From IMG/VR virus record IMGVR_UViG_3300037172_000103, positions 1 through 38,899 of that record: DNA of 38,899 nucleotides, one strand, 5' to 3'. The position numbers and the translations under genes are program-made. The notes under the pieces were generated by a model, which saw nothing but the letters and a program-made list of their open reading frames with translations, was not told where the DNA came from and did no database searches. Origin of the DNA: a virus. This document shows, piece by piece, positions 1,243-38,807 of this stretch (within the stretch, counting starts at the first letter, position 1; every line of letters starts with the position of its first letter).

Positions 1243-1288
1243 GCTCCTAGCTTCTAGCTCTTAGCTTTTAGCCTTTTAACATTTGGCC
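1243..1288. repeat. Heptad array 1
   Basis: Seven-base degenerate repeat with units such as TAGCTTC, TAGCTCT, TTAGCCT and TTGGCC. It fills the gap between the 1233 and 1438 genes. Confidence 0.85.
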
Positions 1289-1306
1289 TTTTCCCTACGA
1301 TTTCGA

Positions 1307-1438
1307 TCAACAACGTGCCGTCGATCTCTGCCGTTCATGGCCTAAATCTCGCGGCCTGCGGTAGATGACGTAGAGCGGCGGAAATGTCCGCATCGCTTCT
1401 TCGATGGTGAGCTGAGGCCCCTCTGCCTGATTCGGCAT
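1307..1438 (-). CDS. Small phage ORF, 43 aa
   Basis: The ATG at 1438 (MPNQAEGPQLTIEEAMRTFP) is preceded by GGAG about six bases upstream. It lies 2 bases after the stop of the 1441 gene, so the two are probably co-translated. The short protein ends in a basic tail (YRRPRDLGHERQRS). The frame stays open further upstream, but that part overlaps the neighbouring gene and lacks a ribosome site. Function unknown. Confidence 0.5.
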   Translation of the reverse strand: MPNQAEGPQLTIEEAMRTFPPLYVIYRRPRDLGHERQRSTARC

Positions 1439-1440
1439 GA

Positions 1441-1698
1441 TCACTCCACAACCTCCACGGGCGGACCGCAGGTAAAGTGCATGGCATTGACCGCCGCGAC
1501 AATTCGTGCAGCATCTTCCGCGTTGTGACACTGGCACACGGGTCGGTCACCGTCGTAAACGTTCAGGGAAACCTGTTTACCGACGCGCCATGCCTCTTGT
1601 GCGCCCACACGATCTCTTACGTCATAGGCAATCCGCTTCGTCTCAGCGTCAGCTTTGTCGCGGGCTCCTGGTGTCATCGTGAGCGTCCTCTTCGCCAT
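1441..1698 (-). CDS. Hypothetical phage protein, 85 aa
   Basis: The start is MAKRTLTMTPGARDKAD. The second half reads like a small alpha/beta fold (VSLNVYDGDRPVCQCHNAED, then AARIVAAVNAM), in the style of small conserved early phage proteins. It sits tightly between neighbours in the leftward early operon. No catalytic motif was seen and I cannot name the family. Confidence 0.6.
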   Translation of the reverse strand: MAKRTLTMTPGARDKADAETKRIAYDVRDRVGAQEAWRVGKQVSLNVYDGDRPVCQCHNAEDAARIVAAVNAMHFTCGPPVEVVE

Positions 1699-1709
1699 CC
1701 TGTCTTTGC

Positions 1710-2231
1710 CTACATCCCGGTGAACACCTGCTGCGGCGCCGGCACCAGCGGGTTACTCGCGCCCTCGCGGAGGCGCTTCGCCATCAGGTAGGCGCGACCG
1801 CCGATGTCGTTCATCGAACTGCGGCGCTTGTCGTGCCAGCGCCGCCGCCACTCCTCCCGGTTGTGCGGGTCCTCGATCAGCTTCAGCCCGGCGAGGTAGG
1901 TGTCGCGGTCGGTGGCCTTCCCGATCAGGCAGGACTCGAAGCACGCGGCGAGCTCGGTCGCCTTGTCCTTCGTCACACGGTCCACGACGGACTCGAAGCT
2001 CTCGTTCAGGTGCTGCTTGCACCACTCCTCGGTGCCGCCGAACAGGAAGAGCGGGATCTCCTCCGCAGCGACCTTGGTGACCTCGGGTTCGCCGTCGGCG
2101 TCTTCGCCAACGTCGATCGGTTGGAACGAGTACTGGCCGCGGCCCAGGAACACGCAGGCGACGAAGGCGACGTCTAGCGACGCGGCCTCGATCGTGTAGG
2201 CGTCGCTCGGGTTGATGATCTCGTAGAGCAT
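1710..2231 (-). CDS. Hypothetical phage protein, 173 aa
   Basis: The start MLYEIINPSDAYTIEA at 2231 has a strong AGGAGG ribosome site. A longer frame up to 2441 is an arginine-rich antisense-like extension and was discarded. The protein is acidic in the middle (VGEDADGEPEV) with a helical C-terminal half (LIEDPHNREEWRRRW, then AYLMAKRLREGA). Neither a DNA-binding nor a catalytic signature was recognised. It is the best-supported translation start in the early operon. Confidence 0.7.
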   Translation of the reverse strand: MLYEIINPSDAYTIEAASLDVAFVACVFLGRGQYSFQPIDVGEDADGEPEVTKVAAEEIPLFLFGGTEEWCKQHLNESFESVVDRVTKDKATELAACFESCLIGKATDRDTYLAGLKLIEDPHNREEWRRRWHDKRRSSMNDIGGRAYLMAKRLREGASNPLVPAPQQVFTGM

Positions 2232-2242
2232 GGGTTTCCTCC

Positions 2243-2530
2243 TCAGCGCTTCCGGCCGTAGATCACGTTCAGCAAGTGCAGCCAGTCGCGCAGATGGTAC
2301 GCGACCAGATCGAGCAGCAGCCAGACAGCGCCGGCGATCAGCGCCACGATCGCGGCCTCGATCATGGTGACGGTGACCAGCGGATGCCTGTGGCTTATCA
2401 TCGCGGCGTTCGTCCAGACCGCGAAGGTCACGGGCCGACACTCGTAGAAGGAGAAGCCGAGCACGGCGCCCGGCTTGTGATAGTCGCTGGCCTGCCGGCA
2501 GATCACGATACCGATCGGGTTAAAGGCCAA
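2243..2530 (-). CDS. Small membrane protein, TTG start
   Basis: This 95-residue protein has a strong transmembrane segment at about residues 56-80 (IEAAIVALIAGAVWLLLDLV) and a basic C-terminus. Translation probably starts at TTG 2530, about nine bases after AAGGGG. This start overlaps the end of the cysteine-rich gene by 11 bases. The function is unknown. A membrane-associated early protein is the most that can be said. Confidence 0.55.
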   Translation of the reverse strand: MAFNPIGIVICRQASDYHKPGAVLGFSFYECRPVTFAVWTNAAMISHRHPLVTVTMIEAAIVALIAGAVWLLLDLVAYHLRDWLHLLNVIYGRKR

Positions 2531-2848: not shown

Positions 2849-3937
2849 TCAAAACAAACTCCCCTGCTGCACCTGGCGCAAGCCACCCTTGCTGCGGATG
2901 GTGGCGCCGATGCGCTGGCCGAGTTCCTCTTCGTCGGCGCGCGTGTACCAGTTCATAGTCTCGATCGACGACCAGCCCATCCATTCCTGGATCTCGTTCA
3001 GCGGGTGCCCCTGGCGCACCAGGTGTTTGGCGATGGTGTGCTTCAGCATGTGGGTTTTGCATTTTCGCCGCGGGATGCCGGCCTGGAGGGCGTAGCCGTG
3101 GACGATTCGCCAGAATTGAACCCGGGAGATGGGAAAAAGGAGCTCTTGGCGACTCTGGTCCCCCCTAAAAGGCACTTTCCCGCTCCCAGGAGCCACGGAG
3201 AGCAACGAAAGCGGTTCGGGAGGTAGGTCAGACCCAGCCGGTGGCTTTCGGACCCCAACTTCCTGTTTCGGCTCCTCAAATGAGGGAGGAAAAGAGGAAG
3301 TCGAGGGGGTTTCTGGCAAAAATGTAACAATCCTAGGAGATTGTTGCATTTTTGCCATAGTCTGGTTGGGCGCGGAGGAGAGCCGAGAAGCTGCTGGAAA
3401 TTTGGGCTTTGGGCCTGGGGCGGCCGGGTCTTCATCACTCCGGAGCCGGCTGCCACTCCGCCGCTTCCGCCCCTTCGGATTGGCGCCGCCTTTGACCCCG
3501 AATTGCGCCCGATTCGCCAGCCACGCGCCCACGGCCGCCTTTTCATCGAGCAGCGGATTCTCGGGGAACGCCTGCAGGTCATGAAGGCCGCCCTGGCTCC
3601 CCTTCCCGCGGACGATGCGCACCGTCCCCTCGTCCAGCTCGAAGTCGCTTTCCACCAGCGCGCAGGTTTCGCTCGCGCGCAGCCCGTGCCAGTAGGTGAC
3701 CAGGATCATCACATAGTCGCGCTGCCGGTGCGCCTTGGCCACCGTCAGCAGGGCGAGGAGCTGCTCATCGCTGAGTGAGACAGGCGGCTTGCGCGGCTTG
3801 CGCGGTTTGCGCGGGCCGGCCGGTCGGGGTCTGAGCATGGGTGGGGCGAGAGGAGTGAGAACGAAAGGACGAATGCCAGCCGTTGGCAATTGGCCGTTGG
3901 CGGGGAACTGCAGAATTCGGGCGGTGGCGGAGTTCAT
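2849..3937 (-). CDS. Tyrosine recombinase (phage integrase)
   Basis: The 362-residue protein carries the tyrosine recombinase active-site pattern. Arg87 is in GLRASE, the beta-turn lysine is about Lys112 in RGKG, the HxLKH box is at 296-300 (Lys replaces the usual Arg at 299), Trp322 is in MGWSS and the nucleophile Tyr331 is in NWYTR. The family integrates and excises phage DNA at att sites. Residues about 147-266 form an unusual Pro/Ser/Lys-rich insertion between the Arg-I region and the HxLKH box. The N-terminus includes residues encoded by a heptad array and an RKPRKPRK repeat. The ATG at 3937 overlaps the TGA of the ASCH gene (ATGA). A longer frame to 4114 lies over that gene and was discarded. 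Confidence 0.88.
   Translation of the reverse strand: MNSATARILQFPANGQLPTAGIRPFVLTPLAPPMLRPRPAGPRKPRKPRKPPVSLSDEQLLALLTVAKAHRQRDYVMILVTYWHGLRASETCALVESDFELDEGTVRIVRGKGSQGGLHDLQAFPENPLLDEKAAVGAWLANRAQFGVKGGANPKGRKRRSGSRLRSDEDPAAPGPKPKFPAASRLSSAPNQTMAKMQQSPRIVTFLPETPSTSSFPPSFEEPKQEVGVRKPPAGSDLPPEPLSLLSVAPGSGKVPFRGDQSRQELLFPISRVQFWRIVHGYALQAGIPRRKCKTHMLKHTIAKHLVRQGHPLNEIQEWMGWSSIETMNWYTRADEEELGQRIGATIRSKGGLRQVQQGSLF
3315..3356. repeat. 18-bp inverted repeat inside the integrase gene
   Basis: Two 18-base arms (3315-3332 and 3339-3356) are complementary with a single mismatch that is a G-U wobble in RNA; the spacer is 6 bases. The stem begins GGCAAAAATG. It lies in the part of the integrase gene that encodes the low-complexity insertion. 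Confidence 0.8.
3876..3904. repeat. Heptad array 3, inside the integrase start region
   Basis: Units CCGTTGG, CAATTGG and CCGTTGG. Unlike the others it is translated, giving integrase residues about 11-21 (FPANGQLPTAG). Confidence 0.75.
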
Positions 3938-4531: not shown

Positions 4532-4855
4532 ATGGCTGCAACGACCATGACGAAGACCAAGCTTATCGCATACCTGGCCGATGAACTCGGCGATCCGATC
4601 ACACGAAAAACCGTTGGCATCTTTCTCGACGAACTCGCCGACGTGGCCGTCAAAGAGACCAAGAAGAATGGCATCTTCGTTCTGCCTGGCTTGGGCCGGC
4701 TGGTGAAGGCGCATCGCAAAGCCCGCATGGGGCGCAATCCGCAAACCGGCGAGGCCATCCAGATCAAGGCGAAAACCGTAGTGAAGTTCCGCGTGGCCAA
4801 GGCGGCAAAGGAAGCCATCGCGCCCACGGCCGCGTCGAAGAGTAAAGCGGCGTGA
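4532..4855 (+). CDS. HU/IHF-family DNA-binding protein
   Basis: The 107-residue protein has the HU/IHF layout. An N-terminal helical part (TKTKLIAYLADELG, KTVGIFLDELADVAVKE) is followed by the FVLPGLGRL strand, the DNA-contacting arm with GRNPQTGEAI, and a closing KTVVKFRVAKAAKEA. A basic, Ala/Lys/Ser-rich tail ends the protein. The family bends DNA and acts in recombination, replication and packaging. It lies next to the integrase, so a role as an accessory factor for att-site recombination is plausible. A GGAGG six bases before the ATG fixes the start. It is transcribed opposite to its neighbours from its own promoter. Confidence 0.9.
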   Translation: MAATTMTKTKLIAYLADELGDPITRKTVGIFLDELADVAVKETKKNGIFVLPGLGRLVKAHRKARMGRNPQTGEAIQIKAKTVVKFRVAKAAKEAIAPTAASKSKAA

Positions 4856-4861
4856 GATCGG

Positions 4862-4912
4862 CAATTAGCCGTTAGCCATTAGCTTTTAAGCCAAAGGCCG
4901 GCGGCTAAAATT
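4862..4912. repeat. Heptad array 4
   Basis: Units AATTAGC, CGTTAGC and CATTAGC, decaying into TTTTAAG and CCAAAGG. It begins a few bases after the HU stop codon. Confidence 0.85.
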
Positions 4913-4940
4913 GCCCGGACCCTTGGGGGGGGTTCCGGGC
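4913..4940. terminator. Hairpin after HU, possible bidirectional terminator
   Basis: GCCCGGA (4913-4919) pairs with TCCGGGC (4934-4940), with two further C-G pairs near the loop. It lies between the convergent HU gene and the 5018 gene. No T-run follows, so termination is only likely from position. Confidence 0.45.
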
Positions 4941-4993: not shown

Positions 4994-5036
4994 TAGCCTC
5001 AAGCTAACAGCCAACGGCTAAGAGCTAGGAGCTGGG
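4994..5036. repeat. Heptad array 5, contains a stop codon
   Basis: Units TAACAGC, CAACGGC, TAAGAGC and TAGGAGC. The TAG of the minus-strand 172-aa gene (5018-5020) is part of the array. Confidence 0.85.
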
Positions 5037-5536
5037 CTTTTGTCGCGCACCACCAGCGTGGGCGTGCGGTCCTTCGAGACCGTGCACCGCGCGAAGGCGG
5101 CGAACAGCTTGTCGGGCACGGTTTTCGCGGCATGCTCTTTCAGCAGGATGGCGGAGGCCTGCGCGGTCAGAGTCCAGCGAACCGTCTTCTCGAAGATGCG
5201 TTTCAGCAGCCGCGCTTTCTTGGCCTTCACCAGCGCCAGGCGGAATGCTTCGACGGCCGCGGCATCGATCGAGCTCGAGCTGCCAAACGTGCCCATGAAT
5301 TCGAGCGTGAGGCCATAGAGCAGCTTCGACTTCTCGGCATGCGCCGAACCAAACTTCCGCACCTGGGCCAGCGCCAGCTCCCAGATTTCATCCAGGCGAG
5401 CGACTAGCGGACGGTTCGCGAGGTTGGCCGCGATATCGTTCTCTGCGATTTGCTCCTGCAGCTTGCGATACTCCGCAGCCAGGGCTTCAACTTCGGCGGG
5501 CGAGAGGGGCACGAGTGCTTTGGCAGGACTGGCCAT
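5018..5536 (-). CDS. Hypothetical phage protein, 172 aa
   Basis: An Ala/Lys/Leu-rich, largely helical protein beginning MASPAKALVPLSPAEVEA. No transmembrane segment and no known catalytic motif were seen. Its last residues (SPAPSS) are encoded by the heptad array, which also supplies the stop. It follows the lysis genes on the same strand. An ATG without an obvious ribosome site is the only reasonable start. Function unknown. Confidence 0.6.
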   Translation of the reverse strand: MASPAKALVPLSPAEVEALAAEYRKLQEQIAENDIAANLANRPLVARLDEIWELALAQVRKFGSAHAEKSKLLYGLTLEFMGTFGSSSSIDAAAVEAFRLALVKAKKARLLKRIFEKTVRWTLTAQASAILLKEHAAKTVPDKLFAAFARCTVSKDRTPTLVVRDKSPAPSS

Positions 5537-7207: not shown

Positions 7208-7292
7208 TGTTGATCCCTTCTCGAAAAGTTCCTACCACGGGAACGCTGGGAGACGGGACGGAGCGGGAGCAGCGGGGGAGGAAAGCGAAAGA

Positions 7293-7365
7293 GGCCGTTA
7301 GCCGTTAGCCTTTGGCTGTTGGCTAAAAGTAAGAGCTGAGAGCTAAGAGCTGAGAGCTAAGAGCT
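7293..7365. repeat. Heptad array 6, longest simple run
   Basis: About ten phased units: CCGTTAG, CCTTTGG and CTGTTGG, then alternating TAAGAGC and TGAGAGC. It ends just before the lysozyme stop codon. Confidence 0.9.
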
Positions 7366-7370
7366 GCTTC

Positions 7371-7820
7371 TCACTGCCAAAATCCGGATTCAAACTGCAT
7401 CGCCAGCCGCGCAATGCGCAGCGGCTCTTCGTGATCGGCGGCCGAGCTGAGCAGTTGCGTTTTCGCCGTGGGCCAATCGCCGGCCTTCACCGCCTCCAGA
7501 AATTTCACGAAGCTGGAGAGCTTGTGCGCGCCCATGTTGAAGATCAAATTCTCCATGGCGCCTTTGCGCACCGTGTCGAGGTCCATGGCCCAGGGGAAGT
7601 TGGCCTCGAGCGCGATCGCGGCATTGGCCATGTCTTCGGCCAGCATGAAGTCGCGAACCTTTTTCGAGATCCCGACCGCGGTAAAGTCATGCCCCACGCC
7701 ACCGGTGAGGTTGCCCTTGAGCGTGTCGCCCCGGAGCAGGGTTTTGCCCGTGGCATCGTCGTAAAGGAATTGTTTTTCGTCTTCGTCGCGGCGGAGCTGG
7801 TCTTCGAGGCAGGTGATCAT
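7371..7820 (-). CDS. Endolysin, T4-type lysozyme (GH24)
   Basis: The 149-residue protein has the N-terminal GH24 pattern. LRRDEDEKQFLYDD places Glu13 and Asp22 at the spacing of the T4 lysozyme Glu11 and Asp20 pair. TGGVGHDF corresponds to the TIGIGH region. The C-terminal half (LIFNMGAHKLSSFVKFLEAVKAGDW, then ARLAMQFESGFW) matches the conserved helical lobe of phage lysozymes. It cuts the glycan strands of peptidoglycan. No signal peptide is present, so export through the holin encoded directly downstream is expected. AAAGG seven bases before the ATG supports the start. Confidence 0.88.
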   Translation of the reverse strand: MITCLEDQLRRDEDEKQFLYDDATGKTLLRGDTLKGNLTGGVGHDFTAVGISKKVRDFMLAEDMANAAIALEANFPWAMDLDTVRKGAMENLIFNMGAHKLSSFVKFLEAVKAGDWPTAKTQLLSSAADHEEPLRIARLAMQFESGFWQ

Positions 7821-7840
7821 TTTGAGCCTTTCGCAAATGA

Positions 7841-7896
7841 GCAGTCGGCAGTTGGCAGTTAGCAGCTAGTAGCCAACGGCCAATTGCCAATTGCTG
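7841..7896. repeat. Heptad array 7, adjoins a promoter
   Basis: Units CAGTCGG, CAGTTGG, CAGTTAG, CAGCTAG, then CGGCCAA and TTGCCAA. Its last unit supplies the TTGCTG -35 element of the 7961 promoter. Confidence 0.9.
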
Positions 7897-7926
7897 TTTT
7901 TCTCGGATCGCGCTAGACTCCGATCC
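7891..7926 (+). promoter_or_regulatory. Rightward promoter with GGATCG dyad
   Basis: TTGCTG (7891-7896) and TAGACT (7914-7919) are spaced by 17 bases. A dyad, GGATCG-N10-CGATCC (7905-7926), surrounds the -10. The core is almost identical to the leftward early promoter at 2747-2782. Confidence 0.65.
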
Positions 7927-7960
7927 CAGCAAAGCCCCCCGCTGGGTTTTGGAGGAAGCG

Positions 7961-8567: not shown

Positions 8568-8591
8568 AGCAATTGGCAGTTGGCAGTTGGC
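8568..8591. repeat. Heptad array 8
   Basis: Units CAATTGG and CAGTTGG (twice) run into the TAG stop (8591-8593) of the tail hub gene. Confidence 0.85.
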
Positions 8592-10696
8592 TACTCCACT
8601 CCCGTCATCACTCCCGTGATCCCGTAAGGCGAGTATTCCCCAAAGTCGCTGGCCGAACTCGGCCCCGTGAATTCATAAATCGATGGATCCGTCTGCCGCG
8701 CAATCAGGTCGACGCCCAGCGCGGGCCCGTCTTTCTCGCCGCGGCCCTCGCCCGCCGGCTCCATCGAAATGGAGGCCTGCGTCACTTCAAAGGTTTGCCC
8801 CAGAATGTTCCAGCGCAAATGGGTATAGCCGAAGGTGTCGCCGGCCTCGAGCTGCAGCGCCGCGGTCTTGCATGGCAGCACCAGCCCTTGCTGGAAGCGC
8901 GTGCGCATCATTGTGATTTTCGCCAGCCGCTGCGCCATCCACAACGACGTCGTGAAATCAAGCTGCAGGTCTTTCCAAAGAATCTGGCCGCCGTCTTCGG
9001 TGTTCAGGTAGTTGGGCTTTCCACCCAGGCCGTTGGCCTGGTAGGCGGGAAAGCTTTGCTCGCGCCAGATGCCGGGCAGTTGCGTCATCGAGACCACGGC
9101 GGCCGGGTTCGCGGGAATGAACGCGGGCCTGAATTTGCCCTTCACTCCATTGCACACATCGCGGATGGAAAGCCGGAAGTCGCCCTTAATGGGCCCGCGC
9201 ATGTCGCCATCGCCCAGGGTCACCAGCGGGGTTTGAAAGCTGCCGGCAAACACATGCCAGAGATCGCCCGGCGGAATCGCCCAGCCCGCCATGGCCGCGC
9301 ACATGGAACTTAAAACGTCGCCTCGATTGGAGGAGTGATCGAACATTCCGTCGGTCGCATACAGGTTTTCGTAGACCACGGTATTGTCGGCGTTCCAGAT
9401 GATCAGTTGCGGCTCTTCGCACACGTTGGCCGCGGCGCTCACCGAATAGAGGTCGATCGAGGCCAGCGGCGCCGCCAGCCCGTAGTCCGTATCCTGCAGA
9501 TAATCGTTCACAATCAGCGCCGAGTTCGAGGGGTTGATGGCATTCCAACTCCGCCCCAGGCAAATCCAGTGCTGCGTACCGTCCACGGCGGTCGCGCCCA
9601 CGCTTGGGATAAAGGCCGGCTCGGTGGCTCCGGAGATGCCGGCCGCTGTCGACTGCTGCAGGTAGCCGAGCGGCGCTTCGATAATCGAGCCCACAGTCCA
9701 GCCGGCGCCCGGCTGCCACGCATCGTTGATCAGGCGCCCGTTCACCAGGTGGCCTTGCGGGTTGCCGTCGCCCCCGGCCGAGATGCTGGCCTGGCCGTCT
9801 CCGTAGCTATTCCAGCTACAGGTGTTGTCGGCCAGCGTTGCGGGAAAGCTGGCAGTGCCTTCGAAATTCGGCCGGGCCCCAGCCGTGCCGCTGGTGGCGC
9901 CGCTGTTTTCCTGCACCCACACAATGGTGCGATTGTCGACAATGTAGGTTTTGGCCTCGTACCCGGTCGAGGGCTTCCACGCGATCGGGACGCGCGTGTC
10001 GATGATCTTCTTTCCCGTCACCAGGAATTGAATGTTTGGGATCTGCCCGGCCTGGAAGACGGCGGTCCACCCCGAATCGGCGCGCAAAATCACATGCACT
10101 TTGGCGCAGCCCTGCTGCCGGCAGGTGGACGAGCTCCACGAAGGATCGGCGCTTACCAGCTCGGGAAAGGGCTGCACGTTGCTGTTGCGCCCGAAATCGA
10201 ACTCGAAAAAGGCGTGCTGCCAGTACATATCGTTGATGCCGCTCGAGCCGCCCGGCATCAGGTGCCACAAGTTATCGCCCACGCCGCCGCCGTAGTAGAG
10301 ATCGCCAATCACGCCGTTGGGGCCAAAGTTGTAAATGATGCCGTCGATGGCCACGCCATCGAAGCTCGAAATCTCATGGCCGGTGAGCGTATAGACCAGG
10401 TGCAGATATTGGTTGGTCGTCTGCAGGTTTTGCGAGGCTGGAAAGCCGGCAAAGGTGAGCACGCCCGCGTCCTGGGATTGCCCATAGATGACGCGCCGCG
10501 GCGAGTTCCCGTTATCAAAGCTGAGCACGCTGACGGAGGCCACGGGCTTGGTGACCGGGCGCAGCGCCATGCCAACGCCGGTGAGCATGGTCGAAACGCC
10601 GATCCCCACCAGCGGGCCCAAGCCGGTGAAGGCGCCCACCGCGATCAGGGCAATGCCGCCAACGATCAGCCCGATTTCTTCAACGGTCTTCGACAT
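8591..10696 (-). CDS. Tail tip hub protein (gpJ-like)
   Basis: The 701-residue protein has a hydrophobic Gly-rich N-terminus (residues about 8-45), then RRVIYGQSQDAGVLTF. A central block with NSALIVNDYLQDTDYGL and AAANVCEE is characteristic of gpJ-type tail hub proteins, and the C-terminal WMAQRLAKITMMRTRFQQGL and LEAGDTFGYTH fit the same family. The hub contacts the host surface at the tail tip and organises central fibres. Two copies of an inserted module (about residues 240-300 and 330-390: W-P-G-x-G-Y/W start, GxSGxxxP middle, W-x-x-G end) interrupt the core. The same module occurs in the connector at 24998. It is the last gene of the tail module. Confidence 0.75.
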   Translation of the reverse strand: MSKTVEEIGLIVGGIALIAVGAFTGLGPLVGIGVSTMLTGVGMALRPVTKPVASVSVLSFDNGNSPRRVIYGQSQDAGVLTFAGFPASQNLQTTNQYLHLVYTLTGHEISSFDGVAIDGIIYNFGPNGVIGDLYYGGGVGDNLWHLMPGGSSGINDMYWQHAFFEFDFGRNSNVQPFPELVSADPSWSSSTCRQQGCAKVHVILRADSGWTAVFQAGQIPNIQFLVTGKKIIDTRVPIAWKPSTGYEAKTYIVDNRTIVWVQENSGATSGTAGARPNFEGTASFPATLADNTCSWNSYGDGQASISAGGDGNPQGHLVNGRLINDAWQPGAGWTVGSIIEAPLGYLQQSTAAGISGATEPAFIPSVGATAVDGTQHWICLGRSWNAINPSNSALIVNDYLQDTDYGLAAPLASIDLYSVSAAANVCEEPQLIIWNADNTVVYENLYATDGMFDHSSNRGDVLSSMCAAMAGWAIPPGDLWHVFAGSFQTPLVTLGDGDMRGPIKGDFRLSIRDVCNGVKGKFRPAFIPANPAAVVSMTQLPGIWREQSFPAYQANGLGGKPNYLNTEDGGQILWKDLQLDFTTSLWMAQRLAKITMMRTRFQQGLVLPCKTAALQLEAGDTFGYTHLRWNILGQTFEVTQASISMEPAGEGRGEKDGPALGVDLIARQTDPSIYEFTGPSSASDFGEYSPYGITGVMTGVE

Positions 10697-10709
10697 AAGA
10701 AATCTCTCG

Positions 10710-10776
10710 ACTGCTAGCTGCTAATTGCTAAATTGCGCTTCCGCGCAGCAGTTGGCCATTTGGCAGTTCGCCAACC
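10710..10776. repeat. Heptad array 9
   Basis: CTGCTAG, CTGCTAA and TTGCTAA units at the hub side, then CAGTTGG, CCATTTG and CAGTTCG units on the NlpC side, with a short interruption between the two. Confidence 0.8.
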
Positions 10777-10779
10777 CCA

Positions 10780-11232: not shown

Positions 11233-11245
11233 GAGGAAGGAGCCT

Positions 11246-11279
11246 CTGGCAGTTGGCAATTGGCCAGCGGTTAGCTGTG
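11246..11279. repeat. Heptad array 10
   Basis: Units CAGTTGG, CAATTGG, CCAGCGG and TTAGCTG. It includes the TAA stop (11271-11273) of the tail tip gene. Confidence 0.85.
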
Positions 11280-12200
11280 CACAATCACGGTGCAGGCCAC
11301 GCGGTATTCGCCGATCGGCTGGCTGCCGGAAAACACCACCTGGTGGCAGATGATCAGGCAGGTGCCGGGGCCCACGCCGGTCACCTCCCAGGTAAAAATG
11401 TTTACGGTGGCCACCTTGGGGTTAGTCGATCCCAGGTTGCCCCACCACGCCGCGCCGCTGCCGGCGCCCGAGGGGTAGGTCTTATAGCTGGTGTCGGAGT
11501 AGTTGACCGTCACCTCCATGGTGAAGCTGCCGCCCACGCCAATGTCGGCGCCGTTCGGCGACATAATCATGTCCACCTGGAAGGTGGCGCTGTTGGCGGT
11601 GGGCGAAGGCCAGAACAAAGGGGTGTTGTCGAGCGTGTTCACAAAGCTCATTCCCAGATCGCCGGGAAAATAAATCTGCTGGTCCATGTCGTCGAACTGG
11701 CGGTTGGGCGCCTCATTTAAAAGAATCAGCGGATTTTCGCAGGTGATCGAGAGCGTTGAGGACACGCCGGAGTCTTCCAGCGTGGGCACATCGAGCGCGC
11801 CCGCGAAAACCTGAATCGGGTCGGGGATCAGGAGGCCGGTGGAAGGGTTAAAGAATCCCAGGAAGATTGTGGCCGAGCCGGTGACGCGCACCTGGCCCAC
11901 GGCCTCCGCCACCAGGTTGGCGGGAACGCCGCTCAGCGAAAGAATCACGCTTTGCGCCGCCACTTTGTTGGTTTGCGGAATCGCCGAAATCTTCCCCAGC
12001 CATCCCAGGCCGGTCCAGGCCTGGCCATAAGGAAATGTGGAGAGCGGGCTATAGGCCGGTCCCGCCGGCGTGAGCGTTCCGATCCCGCCAAACAGATACA
12101 GCGTGTTGTCGGCAAACTTCAGAATCACAAAGAAGACAGGCGCGGAAGCGCCGCTGCTCGCGAGCTGCGCAAGAAATGTGGGGGAAAGGGAGCGGGGCAT
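11271..12200 (-). CDS. Tail tip protein with Ig-like C-terminus
   Basis: The 309-residue protein reads like a distal tail/hub adaptor (DUF2163-like). It has WTGLGWLGKISAIPQTNKVAAQSVILSLSGVP, a later IPDPIQVFAGALDVP, and NRQFDDMDQQIYFPGDLGMSFV. From about residue 225 a bacterial Ig-like stretch follows (SFTMEVTVNYSDTSY, NPKVATVNIFTWEVTGVGPGTC). Position between the fibre-like genes and the NlpC/P60 gene matches the distal-tail slot. The stop codon is inside the heptad array. The exact family name is uncertain, while the tail tip role is likely. Confidence 0.65.
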   Translation of the reverse strand: MPRSLSPTFLAQLASSGASAPVFFVILKFADNTLYLFGGIGTLTPAGPAYSPLSTFPYGQAWTGLGWLGKISAIPQTNKVAAQSVILSLSGVPANLVAEAVGQVRVTGSATIFLGFFNPSTGLLIPDPIQVFAGALDVPTLEDSGVSSTLSITCENPLILLNEAPNRQFDDMDQQIYFPGDLGMSFVNTLDNTPLFWPSPTANSATFQVDMIMSPNGADIGVGGSFTMEVTVNYSDTSYKTYPSGAGSGAAWWGNLGSTNPKVATVNIFTWEVTGVGPGTCLIICHQVVFSGSQPIGEYRVACTVIVHS

Positions 12201-12220
12201 GGGGAAAAAAGAAGAGAAGA

Positions 12221-12264
12221 GCCGTTAGCCGTTGGCCGTTGGCGAATTGCCAATTGCGAATTGC
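12221..12264. repeat. Heptad array 11, partly translated
   Basis: Units CCGTTAG, CCGTTGG, CGAATTG and CCAATTG. The 65-aa gene reads into the array, so its C-terminus (IGNSPTANG) is array-encoded. Confidence 0.85.
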
Positions 12265-26236: not shown

Positions 26237-26261
26237 GTTTTGGGGGAGCCTTTAGTTTTGG

Positions 26262-26306: not shown

Positions 26307-26312
26307 TTTTTC

Positions 26313-26666: not shown

Positions 26667-26689
26667 GGCCAGAAACCCCGCAATGAGCA

Positions 26690-26724
26690 CTTAGCAGTTC
26701 GCCAACCGCCAACTGCTAGCTGCC
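26690..26724. repeat. Heptad array 20, contains a stop codon
   Basis: Units TTAGCAG, TTCGCCA, ACCGCCA and ACTGCTA. It includes the TAG (26716-26718) of the 26716 gene. Confidence 0.85.
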
Positions 26725-32400: not shown

Positions 32401-33220
32401 TCGCGACGCTGTTGGTCAGATTCAGGAGCTGATAGGTGGCGTTGCCGCCGCTGCCGCTGGCGCTCGAAGTGCCCACCCACAACCCGCGGCCGTTGTTATC
32501 CCAACCGCGAAGATCGGCGTCATAGGCGCCGGAATTTTCTTGCGCGGCCTCATTGAACATCGCCGTGCAGCCGGGCACGCCATTACAGTCGGAAGTGAAA
32601 TGGATCATCTGCGCGCCGTAACCCTGCGCGCTCGCCGAAGTGGAGCAAGTGATAAAGCAAATGTTCGGGGTATCGGGCGTCTGGCTGCCGCTATTACAAA
32701 AGGCGGCGTGCGAGGTATCGAGGGCGTTGCAGGCCTGAATGGTGAAGACGCCAATGCCGGGCGATCCCGAACCGGAGCCAATCACCAGAGTCTTGGAAGG
32801 CAGAATCCACGAAGCGCCGTTCCACATATGGAACGTGTGCCCGGAGTTCATGACGATGTTGCCGGCAAAGTTCGAAATAATCGGAGAAGTGGGGCAGGAT
32901 AAATCCGCCACCGGAAAATCGATCAGGATGTCTTGCCCGATGGGGCCGGCGATCGATTCATTTTCGGCCGTAACCATCTGGTCGCAAGGCGTCGCGCCGG
33001 TCTGGCTCGAGGCCGAAATTGCGGGCAGGATGCCGAGCGGCAACAGGCCTTCGGCATTCAGGGTCACCAGGTCGCCAGGGGCGCTCCCCACTACGTAAGG
33101 CCCGTAAGGTTGGATCTGGGGAGCCGAAGTTACATAACTTTGCGCGCAGGCGGGCAGCGCGAAGGCACACAGGAGCGCGGCCGCGGCGAGCGCGGAAGAA
33201 AGCTTGCTGAATATGTTCAT
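29414..33220 (-). CDS. Secreted giant protein with tandem 207-aa modules
   Basis: The 1268-residue protein starts MNIFSKLSSALAAAALLCAFALPACAQS, a Sec signal peptide. The N-terminal half is Gly/Thr/Ser/Asn-rich and beta-helix-like. From about residue 690 two near-identical modules of about 207 residues follow (GGNSATTAQFSQYAMF to DANGGATTSGC, then GGNSPTAAQFAESAMF to DANGGLTTTGC). A C-terminal beta-sandwich ends with GTSSDAINIGAYQAECHINQ. Its ATG overlaps the stop of the preceding gene (TAATG), so they are translationally coupled. An extracellular or virion fibre role is inferred. No enzyme motif was seen. Confidence 0.65.
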   Translation of the reverse strand: MNIFSKLSSALAAAALLCAFALPACAQSYVTSAPQIQPYGPYVVGSAPGDLVTLNAEGLLPLGILPAISASSQTGATPCDQMVTAENESIAGPIGQDILIDFPVADLSCPTSPIISNFAGNIVMNSGHTFHMWNGASWILPSKTLVIGSGSGSPGIGVFTIQACNALDTSHAAFCNSGSQTPDTPNICFITCSTSASAQGYGAQMIHFTSDCNGVPGCTAMFNEAAQENSGAYDADLRGWDNNGRGLWVGTSSASGSGGNATYQLLNLTNSVANPWRFCQEGAVGIYLDAIAGGPKKVSGITIGNTYCKTLSTTNGWAAYPLYNMEVVAASTPITDKPHFETFEVAGALMGGKTPGYGAYFTATTSGGNITATTQVSGGLAYTAPTVKVFPTTCTGGTLTPNLISGVITSLTISGTFTGCGTSASVLISISDAVTTGGSTAVSITNPEACCVDAAYQATASVVAVALGATAEKSLTIKSAACGSPNAPTNLIADANHLTISCTAASRSEDEYSTDAAGNVQIDTSQVNPNGLVPYASFGTTVANVVRMIGHTPDGTTAGPISDFLPGVNGRVQNNATGTGIVATDCGTRVVYQSYTGAGTDTLPTAATLGVPKCNFKLAIPVTLASGSPNPVTQVTITAAGTINGAGTFVLYAGQVASFFVDPAVATNFDADIVPKNAFNSVLTIAAGGNSATTAQFSQYAMFYAPNTMASTATVNLPTCLTCFAGQWITVQNYSSSVVNINPTASGLTLNGGTANLQLLAASETAPTAAIVFFDGANFEGYLVGQGTVPNAVDVNGAVVPASATFLSTNSSRQLIAGASFPLASLAAQAAYTAVANLTNASAVPTAVAVQGTDSKLMSAGTVSTSAAIALCTDANGGATTSGCPANTAAAIAAGGNSPTAAQFAESAMFYAPNSMASTATVNLPTCATCLIGQWITVANYSSSVVNINPTASGLTLNGGTANLVLAAASETAPTSATIYFDGTNFEGYLSGQGTAPNTVDVNGAAVPASAAFVKTNSSNQLVAGTALPLASLAAQAAYTVVANQTNASAVPTAVSVQGTDSKLMSAGTVSASTGVALCTDANGGLTTTGCAGAGITGTWTSTGNALGTNGAGAAQDLGYTAYAPMVLTSSFTNSTTSITAIITSGTIAAGAVITGTCTGIYNISTAVAPARFSISTTVAAQAIEFGMFATYSGSGASVGTAAQTTGGGILQTGGNVAAVGTNYPFSLNFVIQWNASTAGTFTLGGATGTSSDAINIGAYQAECHINQ

Positions 33221-34824
33221 TAAACTCCAGTGATCGAAACGGATGCCCCGGTGGTGGTGGAAATCACGTAGCGCAGATTGGTGTTCGAAAGCGGCCATCC
33301 CGCGCACTGCCCGGGTTCGAGCTGCAGGCCTGCAGTCGAGCCCGAGGTGGTCACGCTCGAGGGGCCGATGAAGACGCTGATGGTGTTATTCGGCGAAGCG
33401 CACACGCTGAAGCTGTGCGCGGCATTGGAGGCCAGAGCCACGGCCGTGGTTGTGACCGCTTGCGTGAAGTCGATGGCCGCGCCAAACCCCGCCGGCTGGG
33501 TGGGCGTGGTGGGCGCCGTCGCCATACTGATCGGCTGCGTGGCCTGATAGAAAGCGCCCGCAACGTTCAGCGTGCTTTGGTTGCTGGCGATGACCACCGG
33601 CTGCGAAGCCGCCATGGTCGCCTGGCCGGGAGTGCCGCCACTGCAACCCACTTTGCAATCCGTTTCTACGTAGCCGCTGCCATCCACCGGCGAGATCACG
33701 CTGCTGGGCGTATTGGGCGCAATGGCCAGGCTCACCGGCTGCGTCGATTGATAGAAAATTCCTGTCACCGGCGTAGTGGGCGCGGTCGCCATGCTCACCG
33801 GCTGGGTTGCCTGATAGAAAGTGCCGGTCACCGGCGTGGTGGGCATCGTCGCGATACTCACCGGCTGTGTCGACTGAAAGAAAGTTCCCGCCACGTTCAG
33901 CGTGCTCTGGTTGCTCGCAATCACCACCGGCTGCGAAGCCGCCATGGTCGCCTGGCCAGGGGTGCCGGCTGCGCATCCAGTCTCGCAATTCACTTTTACG
34001 TTGCCGCTGCCATCCACCGGCGAGGTAATGGTCGAGGGAGTGTTCGGCGCGGTCGCCAGGCTCACCGGTTGCGTCGCCTGATAGAAAGTGCCGGTCACGG
34101 GCGTGGTGGGCGCCGTCGCCAGGCTTACCGGCTGCGTCGCTTGAAAGAAAGTTCCCGCCACGTTCAGCGTGCTCTGGTTGCTCGCAATCACCACCGGCTG
34201 CGAGGCCGCCATGGGCTGCTGGCCAGGAGTGCCGGCAGCGCATCCCACTTTGCAATTCGTTTCGATGTAACCATTGCCATCCACCGGCGAAGTGATGCTG
34301 CTCGCGCTGCCACCGGCCGCGGACGGATTATCGGTATAGCCAAAGAGAATCACGATCACGCTGCCGGTACCGGTAATGGTGGGTGTGATCTGGCCATAGG
34401 CGGAAATGCCCGCGGCGGTCGAGGTCACGTATTCGCCAGCGGTCAGGCAGTTGCCAATCGTCGAGGCTGGCAAAATGCCGCCAATCACCGGCGAGACCAG
34501 CGCACCCGTACCCGCGGCCACTGCCGTGGCGGAATCGAGCGAGAGCGTGCAACCGCTCATCCCGCCCACGGGGTTCGGGATCCACAGAATCCGGTAATAG
34601 CTGATGCCGCGCGTATCAAAGCCCGCGGAGGCCGTGGAACTCGAGTTGAAGGCGAAGTCGCCGCCCAATTGCCAGGGATACCCGCCGGTCTGCTGCAACT
34701 TGGTCGAGCCTGGGCCCACAATTTGGGCCGTGGCCAGCGGGACCAGAAACACATCGAGCGTGGCGAGTGCGGGCGCGATCGCGAGCAGCGCCAGAACGAA
34801 CAGGAATTTTTGCAGCGTCTTCAT
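33220..34824 (-). CDS. Secreted repeat protein with QATQPVS units
   Basis: The 534-residue protein starts MKTLQKFLFVLALLAIAPALA, a Sec signal peptide. The central region holds six copies of a repeat around QATQPVSLATAPTTP and three copies of an SPVDGxGxxxxNCxxGCxxGTPGQ block followed by SQPVVIASNQSTLNV. The latter motif also occurs in other phage structural proteins. It ends with an FSVCASPNNTISVFIGPSSVTTSG beta-sandwich. Cysteine pairs repeat in each block. It is the first of three coupled secreted-type genes. The start at 34824 was chosen over an upstream frame encoded by repeat and terminator sequence. Confidence 0.65.
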   Translation of the reverse strand: MKTLQKFLFVLALLAIAPALATLDVFLVPLATAQIVGPGSTKLQQTGGYPWQLGGDFAFNSSSTASAGFDTRGISYYRILWIPNPVGGMSGCTLSLDSATAVAAGTGALVSPVIGGILPASTIGNCLTAGEYVTSTAAGISAYGQITPTITGTGSVIVILFGYTDNPSAAGGSASSITSPVDGNGYIETNCKVGCAAGTPGQQPMAASQPVVIASNQSTLNVAGTFFQATQPVSLATAPTTPVTGTFYQATQPVSLATAPNTPSTITSPVDGSGNVKVNCETGCAAGTPGQATMAASQPVVIASNQSTLNVAGTFFQSTQPVSIATMPTTPVTGTFYQATQPVSMATAPTTPVTGIFYQSTQPVSLAIAPNTPSSVISPVDGSGYVETDCKVGCSGGTPGQATMAASQPVVIASNQSTLNVAGAFYQATQPISMATAPTTPTQPAGFGAAIDFTQAVTTTAVALASNAAHSFSVCASPNNTISVFIGPSSVTTSGSTAGLQLEPGQCAGWPLSNTNLRYVISTTTGASVSITGV

Positions 34825-34878
34825 GAGAGTGGAGACCTTTCGGGAATGGAAGATCAAAGACCAAGGACGAGACGCGCG

Positions 34879-34922
34879 ATTAGCAGCTAGTTTTTTTTCT
34901 AACTGCCAATTGCCAGTTGCTG
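34879..34922. repeat. Heptad array 21
   Basis: Units TTAGCAG and CTAG, a T-run of eight, then CTAACTG, CCAATTG and CCAGTTG. It lies next to a terminator hairpin. Confidence 0.85.
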
Positions 34923-34935
34923 AGGAAGAGCCTTC

Positions 34936-34972
34936 GAAAGCCGCGCTGGGCAGGTTCTCCCGCGCGGCTTTC
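34936..34972 (-). terminator. Strong hairpin after the 178-aa head gene
   Basis: GAAAGCCGCGC (34936-34946) pairs with GCGCGGCTTTC (34962-34972), with a further GGG/CCC pairing in the loop. It sits directly downstream of the 34986 gene on the minus strand and separates it from the secreted protein genes. A long T-run is absent. Confidence 0.6.
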
Positions 34973-34985
34973 AAGAGGGTTTGAA

Positions 34986-35522: not shown

Positions 35523-35569
35523 AGAGAATCTCCTTAAATCGAATTGGTTTGGGATCGGGACGGGAAAAG

Positions 35570-35621
35570 CAATTGGCAGTCGGCCGTGAGCCAACTGCCA
35601 ACCGCTTATTGCAAATTGCTA
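35570..35621. repeat. Heptad array 22, two-armed, contains a stop codon
   Basis: Units CAATTGG, CAGTCGG and CCGTGAG, then CCAACTG, CCAACCG and CAAATTG. It includes the TAG (35619-35621) of the capsid gene. Confidence 0.9.
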
Positions 35622-37076
35622 TCGCGTGGCGCCGCTGTTGAGGGCGACGAATGGCGACATGGTCGGTCCGCCATTTTTCGGGGTGAGTGGTTTCTTCCAG
35701 GTCGTTTGCCCGTCGATTCTGCAGGTGAAGCGGAAGCATTGCTCGCCCTGTAAGAATCGAACGTGCATCGAACTGGCCACCTGGATGGCTCCCTTGTCGG
35801 CCAAGAGCATCTGGCTCATGTCCGCGAGCACAATGTCGCCGACCGTGCCCAATTGAGCGTTATGTTCGGTCGGGATCACCGGCAGCCCAAGCAGTTCGCC
35901 GTAAGGACCAAACAACGGATTCGCTCCAGGTGGGTGATACAGCAGGATCACACCCGGGCCCGCGCCCGTGCCGACCTGCATGCTGAAGAGCTGAGGGATC
36001 ACGGTCTGGTCGATGAACCAGGCGGCAGCGGGCACATTGCCCACGGCCTGGCCAGCCGTCAAGTTCTCGGTCGCAATGGAGGCGATCGAGTTCTTCAGGC
36101 CTGGGTGCCAGAAGCGCGCCCACATGGCTTCCACGTCGGTCCCGGTTACAACACCTGCGGTCGCACCCGGTGAGATCGGCAGAAAGGCCTGTGAGTTGAA
36201 GATGCCGAGCGGTTGGCCGGCGCCGGTTCCCAGGAAGAGCGCGTCCTCAATGCGGAACGCCAATTCTGTGGGCATGTTATTCATGATCCATGCTTCTAAA
36301 GCCGGACCATCCGCCAGTAATTCGTCGGTCGCGAAGACCAACGCAGTGAGCTTGTTCAGGAACATTTCCACTTCGCGGAATTTCGGCCGCGAGCTCAGGA
36401 AGGTGTCCGCTTCGTTCGCCCAGAAGGCCAGCACTCCACCCATACGGCTGCCATCCGCACGCGAATCTTCGTCGACCACCCGAAGTTTGAGGCGGTTGGA
36501 AGTGGAAGTAATAGGCTGTTTCTGGCAGCGTCGTGTGATCTCACCTGTCAAATAGGTGCGCTGATAAATCTTGTCGCTGACGTCGGCGCCTACGAGGAAA
36601 CCTCCCTCGCTCGGAACCGCTTCGTTCATGGCGCCATCGGAGCCGCCCGCGGCCTGGAACACGCCGTTTTGATCGAAGTCACCAAACTTGCCGAAAAGTC
36701 TGGGATCGGTGCCTTGGCCGGTATCGGCCTGGTGCACAGCCCTGAGCTGCTGGGCAAAGCCCTTCACCCAAAGCTTGCGGGATTTCACCGCGGCATTCGG
36801 ATCGTCTTTCACGGCGACCGCGTCAATATTCTTTTCGCGCTCGAGCTGGCCGGCAATCTCGGTGAGCATGAAGTCCTGCAGATCGAGAGCCTTTTTCTGC
36901 GTATTGCGATCTTCGACCAGCTTCATGAACGTGGACTGTTCTTCGGCGGTCAGATCGCGCTTTTCGGTTTCGGTTTTGTCGTTGAGCTCTTGCGCTTTGG
37001 CGACGATGACCGCGAGCTTGGCTTCAATCTCAACCTTGCGCTGGCGGATGGAATCGATGCTGACTGGTTTTGCCAT
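35619..37076 (-). CDS. Major capsid protein, HK97 fold
   Basis: The 485-residue protein has the HK97-type layout. An N-terminal coiled-coil delta domain (IRQRKVEIEAKLAVIVAKAQELNDK, about residues 8-85) is followed by a charged linker, then EAVPSEGGFLVGADVSDKIYQ, which is typical just after the prohead cleavage region. Next come LTALVFATDELLADG, AFRIEDALFLGTGAGQPLGIFN, and C-terminal DMSQMLLADKGAIQVASSMHVRF and FRFTCRIDG. It forms the icosahedral shell, and the delta domain is expected to be removed by the protease encoded upstream. GAGGAGA seven bases before the ATG fixes the start. Confidence 0.93.
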   Translation of the reverse strand: MAKPVSIDSIRQRKVEIEAKLAVIVAKAQELNDKTETEKRDLTAEEQSTFMKLVEDRNTQKKALDLQDFMLTEIAGQLEREKNIDAVAVKDDPNAAVKSRKLWVKGFAQQLRAVHQADTGQGTDPRLFGKFGDFDQNGVFQAAGGSDGAMNEAVPSEGGFLVGADVSDKIYQRTYLTGEITRRCQKQPITSTSNRLKLRVVDEDSRADGSRMGGVLAFWANEADTFLSSRPKFREVEMFLNKLTALVFATDELLADGPALEAWIMNNMPTELAFRIEDALFLGTGAGQPLGIFNSQAFLPISPGATAGVVTGTDVEAMWARFWHPGLKNSIASIATENLTAGQAVGNVPAAAWFIDQTVIPQLFSMQVGTGAGPGVILLYHPPGANPLFGPYGELLGLPVIPTEHNAQLGTVGDIVLADMSQMLLADKGAIQVASSMHVRFLQGEQCFRFTCRIDGQTTWKKPLTPKNGGPTMSPFVALNSGATR

Positions 37077-37170: not shown

Positions 37171-37195
37171 AATAAAAAAGCCCGCATCGGCGGGC
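37171..37195 (-). terminator. Intrinsic terminator between protease and capsid genes
   Basis: On the minus strand GCCCGC-CGAT-GCGGGC is followed by six T and then ATT (plus strand A-run at 37174-37179). This is a textbook rho-independent terminator, downstream of the protease gene and upstream of the capsid gene. Confidence 0.85.
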
Positions 37196-37205
37196 CTGAA
37201 ATTTG

Positions 37206-37248
37206 GGCAATTGGCCGTTAGCCAACCGCTAGCTAGCTGCTAATTGCT
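37206..37248. repeat. Heptad array 23, two-armed
   Basis: Units CAATTGG and CCGTTAG, then CCAACCG, CTAGCTA, GCTGCTA and ATTGCTG. It lies between the protease stop codon and the terminator. Confidence 0.9.
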
Positions 37249-37255
37249 GTTTTCC

Positions 37256-38479
37256 TTACACCGCCAACATGCGGCGACGTCGCTGCGCTGCCAGTGCCGC
37301 ATTCGCAGCCTGAGCCGCGGCTGTGGCCTTCGCGCAGGCCTTGCAGGCTCCGCACGGGCATGAGCAGCTCATGTCGTCGCCTTTGGCCTTGGCGGCCGTA
37401 CCGGTGCAGCCCTTGCAAGGCTCACAGGAGCAATCGCAGAAAGTTTGGTCGTCGTCTTCCGCTTTGGCGGCCGCGGCCAGCGTTGGGTCGGTTCCTTCCG
37501 CGCGTGCCCCGGATCCTCCAGGCTTTTTCACGCCATATTTTTCGAGCACGCTATCGAGCGTGCCCACGCGATCGGCCAGACCTGCCTTCACCGCATCGCC
37601 GGCGAGCAGACTGCGTCCCTGGCCGAAACCATCGCGCACCGCGGCCTGCGACGTCCCGCGATGCTGGGCCACGGCTTTAATAAAGCTGCTGTTGACCGAA
37701 TCCACCTGGGATTGCAGGTAAGCCTGCGCTTCATCGGAAAGCGGCTGCGAAGACGATCCCTCCGCCTTGTATTTGCCGGCCTTGATGATGGTCACTTTCA
37801 CGCCTTCATTCTCGAGCGCTTTTGACATGTCCTGGTGGACCATATACACGCCGATCGAGCCGCACTGTCCGCTGGGCGTGCAAACCACTTCACTCGCGGC
37901 CGAGGCCAACCAGTAAGCCGCGCTGCAGGCCATGGCGTTCGAGACGGCCGTCACCGGTTTCACCTTGCGCGCGTCGTAAATCTCCTGGGCGAGTTCCATC
38001 ACGCCCTCCACCGATCCGCCGGGCGAGTCCACATCGAACACAATGGCTTTGCAGTTGCCATCCTGGAGCGCCTGGCGGAATTGGGCGGTAAGCGCCTGAA
38101 TGGATCCGCCGCCGCTTCCGGAAATCTCGCTCATCATGCTCATGCGGTGCGAAATAATTCCCGTCATGGGGATGAGTGCCACGCTGCCGGGCGCTGCGGC
38201 GTTGCGTTTGCCGCCTGCGCCCATCATGGGCAGGTGGGGCAGGTCTTCATACGCATCGTCAGCTTTGTCCTGGGCGACGATGTAGCGCGCCTCGAGCGCC
38301 TCGTGTCCCAGATATCCGCTGGCCGCGTTGGCTTCAGCGATGCGATCGCGAATCTCTTCCGGCGTCCACTTCATGCCGGCAGCCTGGTAGCGAATCAGTT
38401 CTTGCATGCGCAGCAGTGTCTCTTCGCGCAGGGCCCAGATGTGGCTTTCGAACTCGGCGATGATGCGGGCGTACTTCAT
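37256..38479 (-). CDS. Prohead protease, S49/SppA-like, with cysteine-rich tail
   Basis: The 407-residue protein has an N-terminal helical part, then the S49 peptidase core: VALIPMTGIISHR, IVFDVDSPGGSVEGV, AMACSAAYWLASAA (probable catalytic Ser), GSIGVYMVHQDMS and IIKAGKYKAEGS (probable catalytic Lys). It is expected to mature the capsid and scaffold. The C-terminus, about residues 350-390, holds two copies of C-x-C-x-C-x2-C-x2-C (ten cysteines) separated by an Ala/Lys linker. This is not a usual part of S49 proteases. The ATG at 38479 was chosen over an upstream frame read from the array. Confidence 0.85.
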   Translation of the reverse strand: MKYARIIAEFESHIWALREETLLRMQELIRYQAAGMKWTPEEIRDRIAEANAASGYLGHEALEARYIVAQDKADDAYEDLPHLPMMGAGGKRNAAAPGSVALIPMTGIISHRMSMMSEISGSGGGSIQALTAQFRQALQDGNCKAIVFDVDSPGGSVEGVMELAQEIYDARKVKPVTAVSNAMACSAAYWLASAASEVVCTPSGQCGSIGVYMVHQDMSKALENEGVKVTIIKAGKYKAEGSSSQPLSDEAQAYLQSQVDSVNSSFIKAVAQHRGTSQAAVRDGFGQGRSLLAGDAVKAGLADRVGTLDSVLEKYGVKKPGGSGARAEGTDPTLAAAAKAEDDDQTFCDCSCEPCKGCTGTAAKAKGDDMSCSCPCGACKACAKATAAAQAANAALAAQRRRRMLAV

Positions 38480-38481
38480 AA

Positions 38482-38520
38482 GTCTCTTAGCTCCTAGCTC
38501 AGTTTCCACAGCAGCTCAGT
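38482..38520. repeat. Heptad array 24, contains a stop codon
   Basis: Units CTTAGCT and CCTAGCT, then a degenerate CAGCTCAG part. The TAG of the 95-aa gene (38494-38496) is in it, and an AGGAG lies upstream of the protease ATG. Confidence 0.7.
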
Positions 38521-38781
38521 CTCCACAGCTTTTTGCAGGTTCTCCTGCGTCCATTCCAGTTTGTTGGCCACGAGATATCCGCGCACTCCGGCGGCGAATT
38601 CCGCTCCCCGCGGCAGTTCTGGGTGGGCTTGAACGAATTTCGATTCTTCGCGCATCGCCTTCACGGCCCTGATGTCATCCCCGAGCAGCTCCGCCAGTTT
38701 GTCGAAGGCGGCGCTGCCTTTACAGCGGCGTGCCACTTCCGCATCGGGAAGACCAGGCCGGGGGTTGAAGAGTTCATCCAT
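38494..38781 (-). CDS. Small protein upstream of the protease, 95 aa
   Basis: The protein MDELFNPRPGLPDAEVARRCKGSAAFDKLAELLGDDI is helical and charged, ending VETELLWKLS with the stop in the heptad array. No ribosome site is clear before the ATG. It sits between the preceding structural gene and the protease. A scaffold or portal-associated role is possible by position only. Confidence 0.55.
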   Translation of the reverse strand: MDELFNPRPGLPDAEVARRCKGSAAFDKLAELLGDDIRAVKAMREESKFVQAHPELPRGAEFAAGVRGYLVANKLEWTQENLQKAVETELLWKLS

Positions 38782-38785
38782 AAAA

Positions 38786-38807
38786 ATATGCAGTTATGCA
38801 GTTAGCG
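38786..38807. repeat. Short heptad array 25
   Basis: The TATGCAGT unit is repeated twice and followed by TAGC. It overlaps the 3' end of the partial upstream gene. Confidence 0.6.

Follow-up and report, generated by a model that had tools for sequence, protein, structure and literature searches.

The window analysed here, the 38.9-kb virus record IMGVR_UViG_3300037172_000103 of IMG/VR (38,899 nucleotides, taken whole), carries 25 phased arrays of degenerate seven-base units at its gene boundaries, with a summed length of 1372 bp as determined by a relaxed scan and reading of the gaps. The preferred reading, to which we assign a probability of roughly 45%, is that these arrays were gained at gene boundaries in the lineage of this soil phage, belong to the widespread intergenic heptameric repeats of bacteria, arise by strand-symmetric slippage together with inverted copying, and have in some cases been co-opted. 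The period, the inverted layout, the presence and absence of arrays among relatives, and the joint exchange of words in both arms at one acidobacterial gap are seen directly in the sequences compared.

In the gaps between genes, self-match at lag 7 exceeds that of dinucleotide shuffles with z = 11.2, followed by harmonics at lag 14 (z = 6.7) and lag 21 (z = 5.7), and lags 4 to 6 and 8 to 13 present no comparable excess. A second gene caller gives z = 9.9 at lag 7 in gaps, and the signal is absent from the coding DNA of the window. This excess of 10 to 11 standard deviations (sd) shows that the phased arrays described in the initial annotation, which had named this autocorrelation as a check, are real; its estimate of about 25 arrays, its list of units, and its remark that coupled gene pairs, having no gap, lack arrays are likewise borne out. 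Of the arrays lying wholly within gaps, eight have period 7, where shuffles give 0.3, and periods 5, 6, and 8 to 12 have none. The same annotation placed arrays in nearly every gap, which is too strong: they occupy most same-strand gaps of at least 35 nt (14 of 21), and ordinary hairpins are found in some gaps, such as the strong palindrome TGAATATCCCGCAGAGGATGCGGGATATTCA at 22102-22213, located directly 3' of a stop codon in the manner of the heptad arrays. The units, for example TTGGCAG, TTAGCAA, GCCAATT, and AGAGCTA, have the general form TTRGCNR with variants, and the copies share words and phase and no common sequence. A search of Rfam 15 gave no match in the window at family gathering score. 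Assembly error was ruled out, because independent contigs, many genomes, and a complete chromosome hold the same repeat classes. Testing column variability by chi-square was rejected for its unsuitable null; anchoring on RGC fixes the G and C columns by construction.

Viewed on the coding strand, many arrays consist of TTRGCNR units, a short loop, and then the reverse complement, forming an inverted pair that can fold into a hairpin. This layout and the adjacency to stop codons go beyond what was initially described. Folding of 16 elements placed seven of them more than 4 sd below dinucleotide shuffles; p ≤ 0.05 was retained by seven when whole heptads were shuffled so that the words are preserved. 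In the 14 same-strand gaps with arrays, nine arrays start at most 3 nt from a stop codon, where 1.2 are expected from random placement. Proximity was measured as this count; the mean distance to the stop (p = 0.75) was set aside as uninformative, because two arrays sit at start codons. These start-codon arrays are the rarer class. In the sequences fetched, the word AGCTAGGAGCT is found at 11 distinct places, with an ATG 6 to 12 nt downstream at 7 of the 11 versus 0 of 12 on the opposite strand, and its AGGAG can therefore serve as a Shine-Dalgarno sequence; this use is observed in the window, in phages L003 and L005, and in one acidobacterial genome. When the window is taken together with its relatives and the Acidobacteriota samples, neighbouring arrays of the same vocabulary are ordered F..R in 27 cases, R..F in none, and in the same orientation in 7. 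In loci of other phyla, selected for the pattern, TTRGC arrays give 10, 17, and 27, respectively. The polarity is thus fixed in the first of these two sets, but not everywhere.

Related phages were found through their capsid, protease, and tail proteins, and the homologous gaps were compared between flanking proteins that are mostly 50 to 81% identical (one flank, 32%). At six homologous gaps an array is present in the window and absent in related phages, where the gap is often just 4 to 27 nt long. At gap 24405-24520 the stop codon in L002 abuts the next start, and the window sequence past the array matches that gene start. Gap 26237-26312 is 21 nt in L002, gap 10697-10779 is 4 to 9 nt in L242, L243, L244, and L246, gap 11233-11270 is 5 to 8 nt in L242, L243, and L246, and gap 7208-7370 is 27 nt, without the array, in L244; L009 has no array at gap 24881-24997. 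From this comparison we call the arrays putative insertions in the lineage of the window, as the alternative, loss in the relatives, would need repetition. The empty gaps speak against the conserved intercistronic element initially envisaged. The gap 3' of the capsid gene holds a hairpin in every phage seen: the window and L003 build it from heptads, L005 and L006 from octads (TCAWTGAN), and L002, L004, L007, and L008 from ordinary sequence. L002, which has the closest capsid (88%), carries by eye octads CACAGAGN instead of heptads in other gaps. Among viral loci not linked to the window, L128, L133, L150, and others have the words CCAACTG, AAATCTC, and GTTGAGN in many gaps, and several of these arrays end right at an ATG in a single orientation, which suggests a possible start-codon class among them.

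The best evidence is provided by orthologous gaps in one acidobacterial genus, in which the heptad is found in 36 of 45 genomes. One gap between same-strand genes was located in 11 species: heptad arrays were detected in seven, a weaker one is visible by eye in L297, two species have 8 or 15 nt, and one has other sequence. The palindromes of this gap are built of TTRGC or TCAGC words, with both arms using one vocabulary. The two arms of one species pair better with each other than with arms exchanged among species by permutation (p = 0.001), and pairing across vocabularies is weak (mean of −24.7 versus −38.9 kcal/mol), so the structure persists or re-forms while the words of both arms change. 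Sense and antisense folds of these palindromes are equally strong. Elsewhere in the genus, the same gap may contain heptads, be empty, or carry an unrelated dispersed repeat. In L285, L291, L292, and L295 a different dispersed repeat (TGTCATCCTGAGCGGAGC...) fills or shares the gap that corresponds by orthology to L274 8946-9008, where congeners hold GTACCGA heptads.

A 23-nt heptad pattern matches no fewer than 118 genomic places spread over many phyla and 65 stretches of viral contigs. A three-core heptad occurs in 22 of 199 Acidobacteriota genomes and an octad version in 10 of the 199, six of which lack the heptad; octad spacing, tried as an empty control, failed as such because octad arrays turned up instead. 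Further acidobacterial genomes, sampled because they had pattern matches, hold several heptad words each (GTGAATN, AAAGTTC, TCAGCTN, and GGTCTTN), with lag-7 z values from 7 to 15, and several unrelated words and two periods can occur within one genome. The notion of a phage-specific element is not sustained, given that the same words occur in many bacterial phyla as well as in the genus described above. In G005, the genome of L014 (Microseira wollei, a cyanobacterium), 3477 matches to TTRGCNRTTRGCNRTTRGC are found.

Within the window, only the elements at 2849 and 35619 have TTTT behind the stem. Terminator-like sites in the window show no excess over shuffles, and only one overlaps an array; in the protease-capsid gap a separate terminator-like site (37178-37197) follows downstream of the array. 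In the heptad hairpins, departures from pairing in the sense-strand stem comprise 40 G.U and 45 A.C in a sample of modest size, compared with 116 and 83 in ordinary hairpins of the same genomes and 13 and 5 in the strongest of these. Having no sense-strand G.U bias and mostly no U-tract, the arrays are not ordinary Rho-independent terminators, which combine a G+C-rich hairpin with a U-tract on the strand of the gene. The equal numbers of G.U and A.C argue for heptad stems shaped by a strand-symmetric process or constraint at the DNA level.

The mechanism that we infer, as yet unproven, is a strand-symmetric DNA process of slippage and template switching. Replication slippage in 7-nt steps, or 8-nt steps in some genomes, would make the arrays, and template switching would copy one arm into the other in inverted form. 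Selection would then clear the arrays from everywhere but the stretch that separates a stop codon from the ribosome-binding site following it. Some may have been co-opted, whether to form the hairpin that follows the capsid gene or to provide the next gene with a Shine-Dalgarno sequence. A mutational origin of this kind would account for the period, the palindromy, the strand symmetry, and the turnover, and the location fits tolerance because 9 of 14 arrays lie within 3 nt of a stop. The specificity of period 7, the inverted pairs, the lineage-specific presence, the strand symmetry, and the vocabulary shared by both arms all favour it. Several points weigh against it. Slippage at separate loci does not explain the same words at unlinked loci and in different genomes, nor does it explain the fixed polarity; no slippage or template-switching step was observed in the sequences compared; and the adjacency to stop codons could also mean function. 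In addition, unbiased arm-swap tests within the window gave no array-specific complementarity (p = 0.42 and 0.95). An apparent array-specific covariation inside the window (p < 0.001) was dropped, as it came from arms cut by folding and was biased by construction.

In a functional reading, the arrays would be RNA hairpins at the 3' ends of mRNAs, serving as attenuators, as sites of processing, or as barriers to exonucleases, and would thereby adjust the levels of adjacent phage genes relative to one another. We consider this doubtful, although the hairpins stand directly behind stop codons, seven are more than 4 sd below shuffles and seven reach p ≤ 0.05 after heptad-block shuffling, every relative has some hairpin behind its capsid gene, and the words of both arms change together in one bacterial gap. 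An RNA function sits poorly with the equal strength of sense and antisense folds and the missing G.U bias on the sense strand, with the scarcity of U-tracts and the lack of an excess of terminator-like sites, and with relatives that have no arrays at most gaps. The presence and absence of arrays at homologous gaps would also fit the insertion, at the boundaries between genes, of heptad palindromes particular to each genome, whether as a dispersed mobile element resembling repetitive extragenic palindromic (REP) sequences or miniature inverted-repeat transposable elements, or as the product of an enzyme such as a reverse transcriptase that makes tandem repeats. The words common to unlinked loci, the fixed polarity, and the unrelated dispersed repeat that also entered the same gap point in this direction as well, but no element sequence is conserved between copies, with words, unit number, and loop differing at every site, and no target duplication is seen by eye. 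No dedicated gene was identified, although no search aimed at a REP-associated tyrosine transposase (RAYT) was made, and this origin appears unlikely.

It is decidedly unlikely that soil Acidobacteriota and other bacteria possess a machinery that writes heptad or octad words specific to each genome, as inverted arrays, at the gene boundaries of both chromosomes and phages and that rewrites the two arms together. Recurrence of words at unlinked loci would also be expected if the arrays were binding sites for a nucleoid or regulatory protein with a 7-bp pitch, which would keep the words alike across loci, and a phage HU-like gene (PF00216) lies beside one array. This explanation is nevertheless very improbable in view of the several unrelated words and two periods in one genome and of the relatives without arrays, and a position-specific constraint could not be shown, given the RGC anchoring and the unsuitable chi-square null.

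Among known repeats, REP sequences and bacterial interspersed mosaic elements (BIMEs) are palindromic, occur behind genes in many copies, and have a conserved core. The arrays resemble them in palindromy, location, and copy number, but have no shared core, show an internal 7-nt period, and have words that are replaced between congeners. As the initial annotation proposed, the arrays are comparable in kind to the short tandemly repeated repetitive (STRR) heptanucleotides of cyanobacteria, with different words: the STRR consensus is presumably CCCCART, and an inverted arrangement is, to our knowledge, not a described hallmark of STRR. STRR are cyanobacterial, whereas the window is a phage with capsid relatives in the Acidobacteriota. 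Those of Calothrix, as cited in PMC4692102, are tandem heptamers. The GGGNATC heptamers of Xanthomonas (Rehm et al. 2015, PMC4692102) are intergenic and include inverted pairs near the upstream ORF (open reading frame), with about 70 inverted pairs per genome; the heptads mostly come in runs of about four units and are variable between related species. The Nostoc heptamer is GGGGAYT (PMC4692102). With these the arrays share degenerate intergenic heptads lying nearer the stop of the upstream ORF, many inverted pairs, and turnover between relatives. The Xanthomonas and Nostoc units contain GGG or GGGG tracts, whereas the window units, TTRGCNR and variants, do not and therefore form no G-quadruplex; the window case also concerns a phage and has homologous gaps that are empty. 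The TAACTGA repeats of Beggiatoaceae, Cyanobacteria, and Bacteroidetes (MacGregor 2015, PMC4679880) are likewise intergenic heptamer arrays, patchy across distant phyla and in part overlapping the ribosome-binding site, but consist of a single nearly invariant word in direct repeats, mostly before start codons. The initial claim that such elements had not been described may hold for Acidobacteria and phages, for which the open-licence library searched gave no report of heptamer repeats, and does not hold for intergenic heptamers as such. The arrays are best filed with the intergenic heptameric repeats of bacteria, having a 7-nt period in gaps, degenerate units, variable unit number, and turnover; what is new is the set of words, the hosts, the occurrence at most gene boundaries of a phage, and the direct evidence of presence and absence. 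A hypothesis quoted in PMC4692102, which relates the abundance of heptamers to the length of DNA that the polymerase holds, would be compatible with the arrays.

The individual arrays are given here in window positions, with z for the fold against dinucleotide shuffles. A unidirectional array of AGCTAGA/AGCTAAG type at 1235-1296(-) immediately precedes gene 955-1233(-) and closes with the units AGCTAGGAGCT, which give an AGGAG Shine-Dalgarno sequence. Inverted array 2781-2849 (z = −6.2) is 3' of the integrase gene 2849-3840(-), whose true start is taken as about 3840, and on the minus strand its hairpin is followed by TTTT; a short array at 3872-3906 separates this gene from an ASCH-domain gene. 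The HU-like DNA-binding protein gene 4532-4855(+) has a heptad palindrome directly 3' of its stop codon, inverted array 4853-4914, which starts at that stop. Array 4995-5044 is at the 3' end of gene 5018-5536(-) and overlaps its predicted last codons, two blocks of AGAGCTN and TTAGCCG types at 7287-7375 are 3' of gene 7371-7820(-), and inverted array 7830-7900 (z = −5.5) occupies the divergent gap 7821-7960. Inverted array 10708-10779 is in gap 10697-10779, and array 12204-12276, an exception to purely intergenic placement, extends into the 3' end of the small predicted ORF 12225-12422(-).

Stop codons are the site of arrays 8569-8603 (gene 8591-10696(-)), 11241-11282 (gene 11271-12200(-)), and the short 24056-24091 (gene 24081-24404(-)), of two short blocks at 22718-22785 (gene 22781-23206(-)), and of the inverted arrays 20700-20765 (gene 20756-21091(-)), 21816-21894 (gene 21889-22101(-); z = −4.7), 24455-24524 (gene 24521-24880(-); z = −5.9), and 26258-26312 (gene 26313-26690(-); z = −4.6); inverted array 24945-24997 adjoins the stop of gene 24998-26236(-). 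Array 23207-23245(-), upstream of gene 22781-23206(-), ends in AGCTAGGAGCTGATTTCAATG, which provides Shine-Dalgarno sequence and start, and array 26677-26728 is at the start of gene 26313-26690(-). Inverted array 34875-34925 (z = −4.4) is in gap 34825-34985, downstream of an ordinary hairpin, and inverted array 35560-35624 (z = −6.6), 3' of the major head protein gene 35619-37076(-), forms a 19-pair stem followed by TTTT. Array 37220-37256 is flanked by the stop codon of gene 37256-38479(-), which encodes the head protease, and by the separate intrinsic-terminator-like site. The two remaining arrays have just 2 to 3 units each: at 38480-38500(-) the word AGCTAGGAGCTAAGAG serves the upstream gene as stop and gene 37256-38479(-) as Shine-Dalgarno sequence, and the short repeat TATGCAGT/TATGCAGT/TAGC at 38787-38806, with an 8-nt step, is the weakest of all.

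The window contains head, protease, tail, and integrase genes. The one terminase model searched gave no match in it and no portal gene was identified, so that it is probably a fragment. Predicted gene 33220-34824(-), with almost no family matches, contains large tandem repeats at 33503-34297 with periods of 63, 267, and 330 bp and a match of about 80 to 86%. In sampled genomes, relatives of the capsid protein are found in Acidobacteriota prophages at identities up to 47%. Because other phyla were covered by a scan for close relatives alone, these prophages point weakly to a host in the Acidobacteriota; the sampled regions around the first-found ones lack such heptads. Shared 12-mers were dropped as a pointer to the host, since loci of other phyla share more of them and were picked for the pattern.

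Intergenic heptamers of bacteria have long been noted without an accepted cause, and are here traced to what appear to be lineage-specific insertions with identifiable empty sites. Since the arrays supply Shine-Dalgarno sequences and stop signals, they can reshape operons. The phage and the acidobacterial genus, with its 45 genomes and paired arms whose words change jointly, form a workable system in which a mutational process can be set against selection on hairpins. The same system is suited to asking why the step is seven (or eight) bases and how non-coding words spread between genomes.

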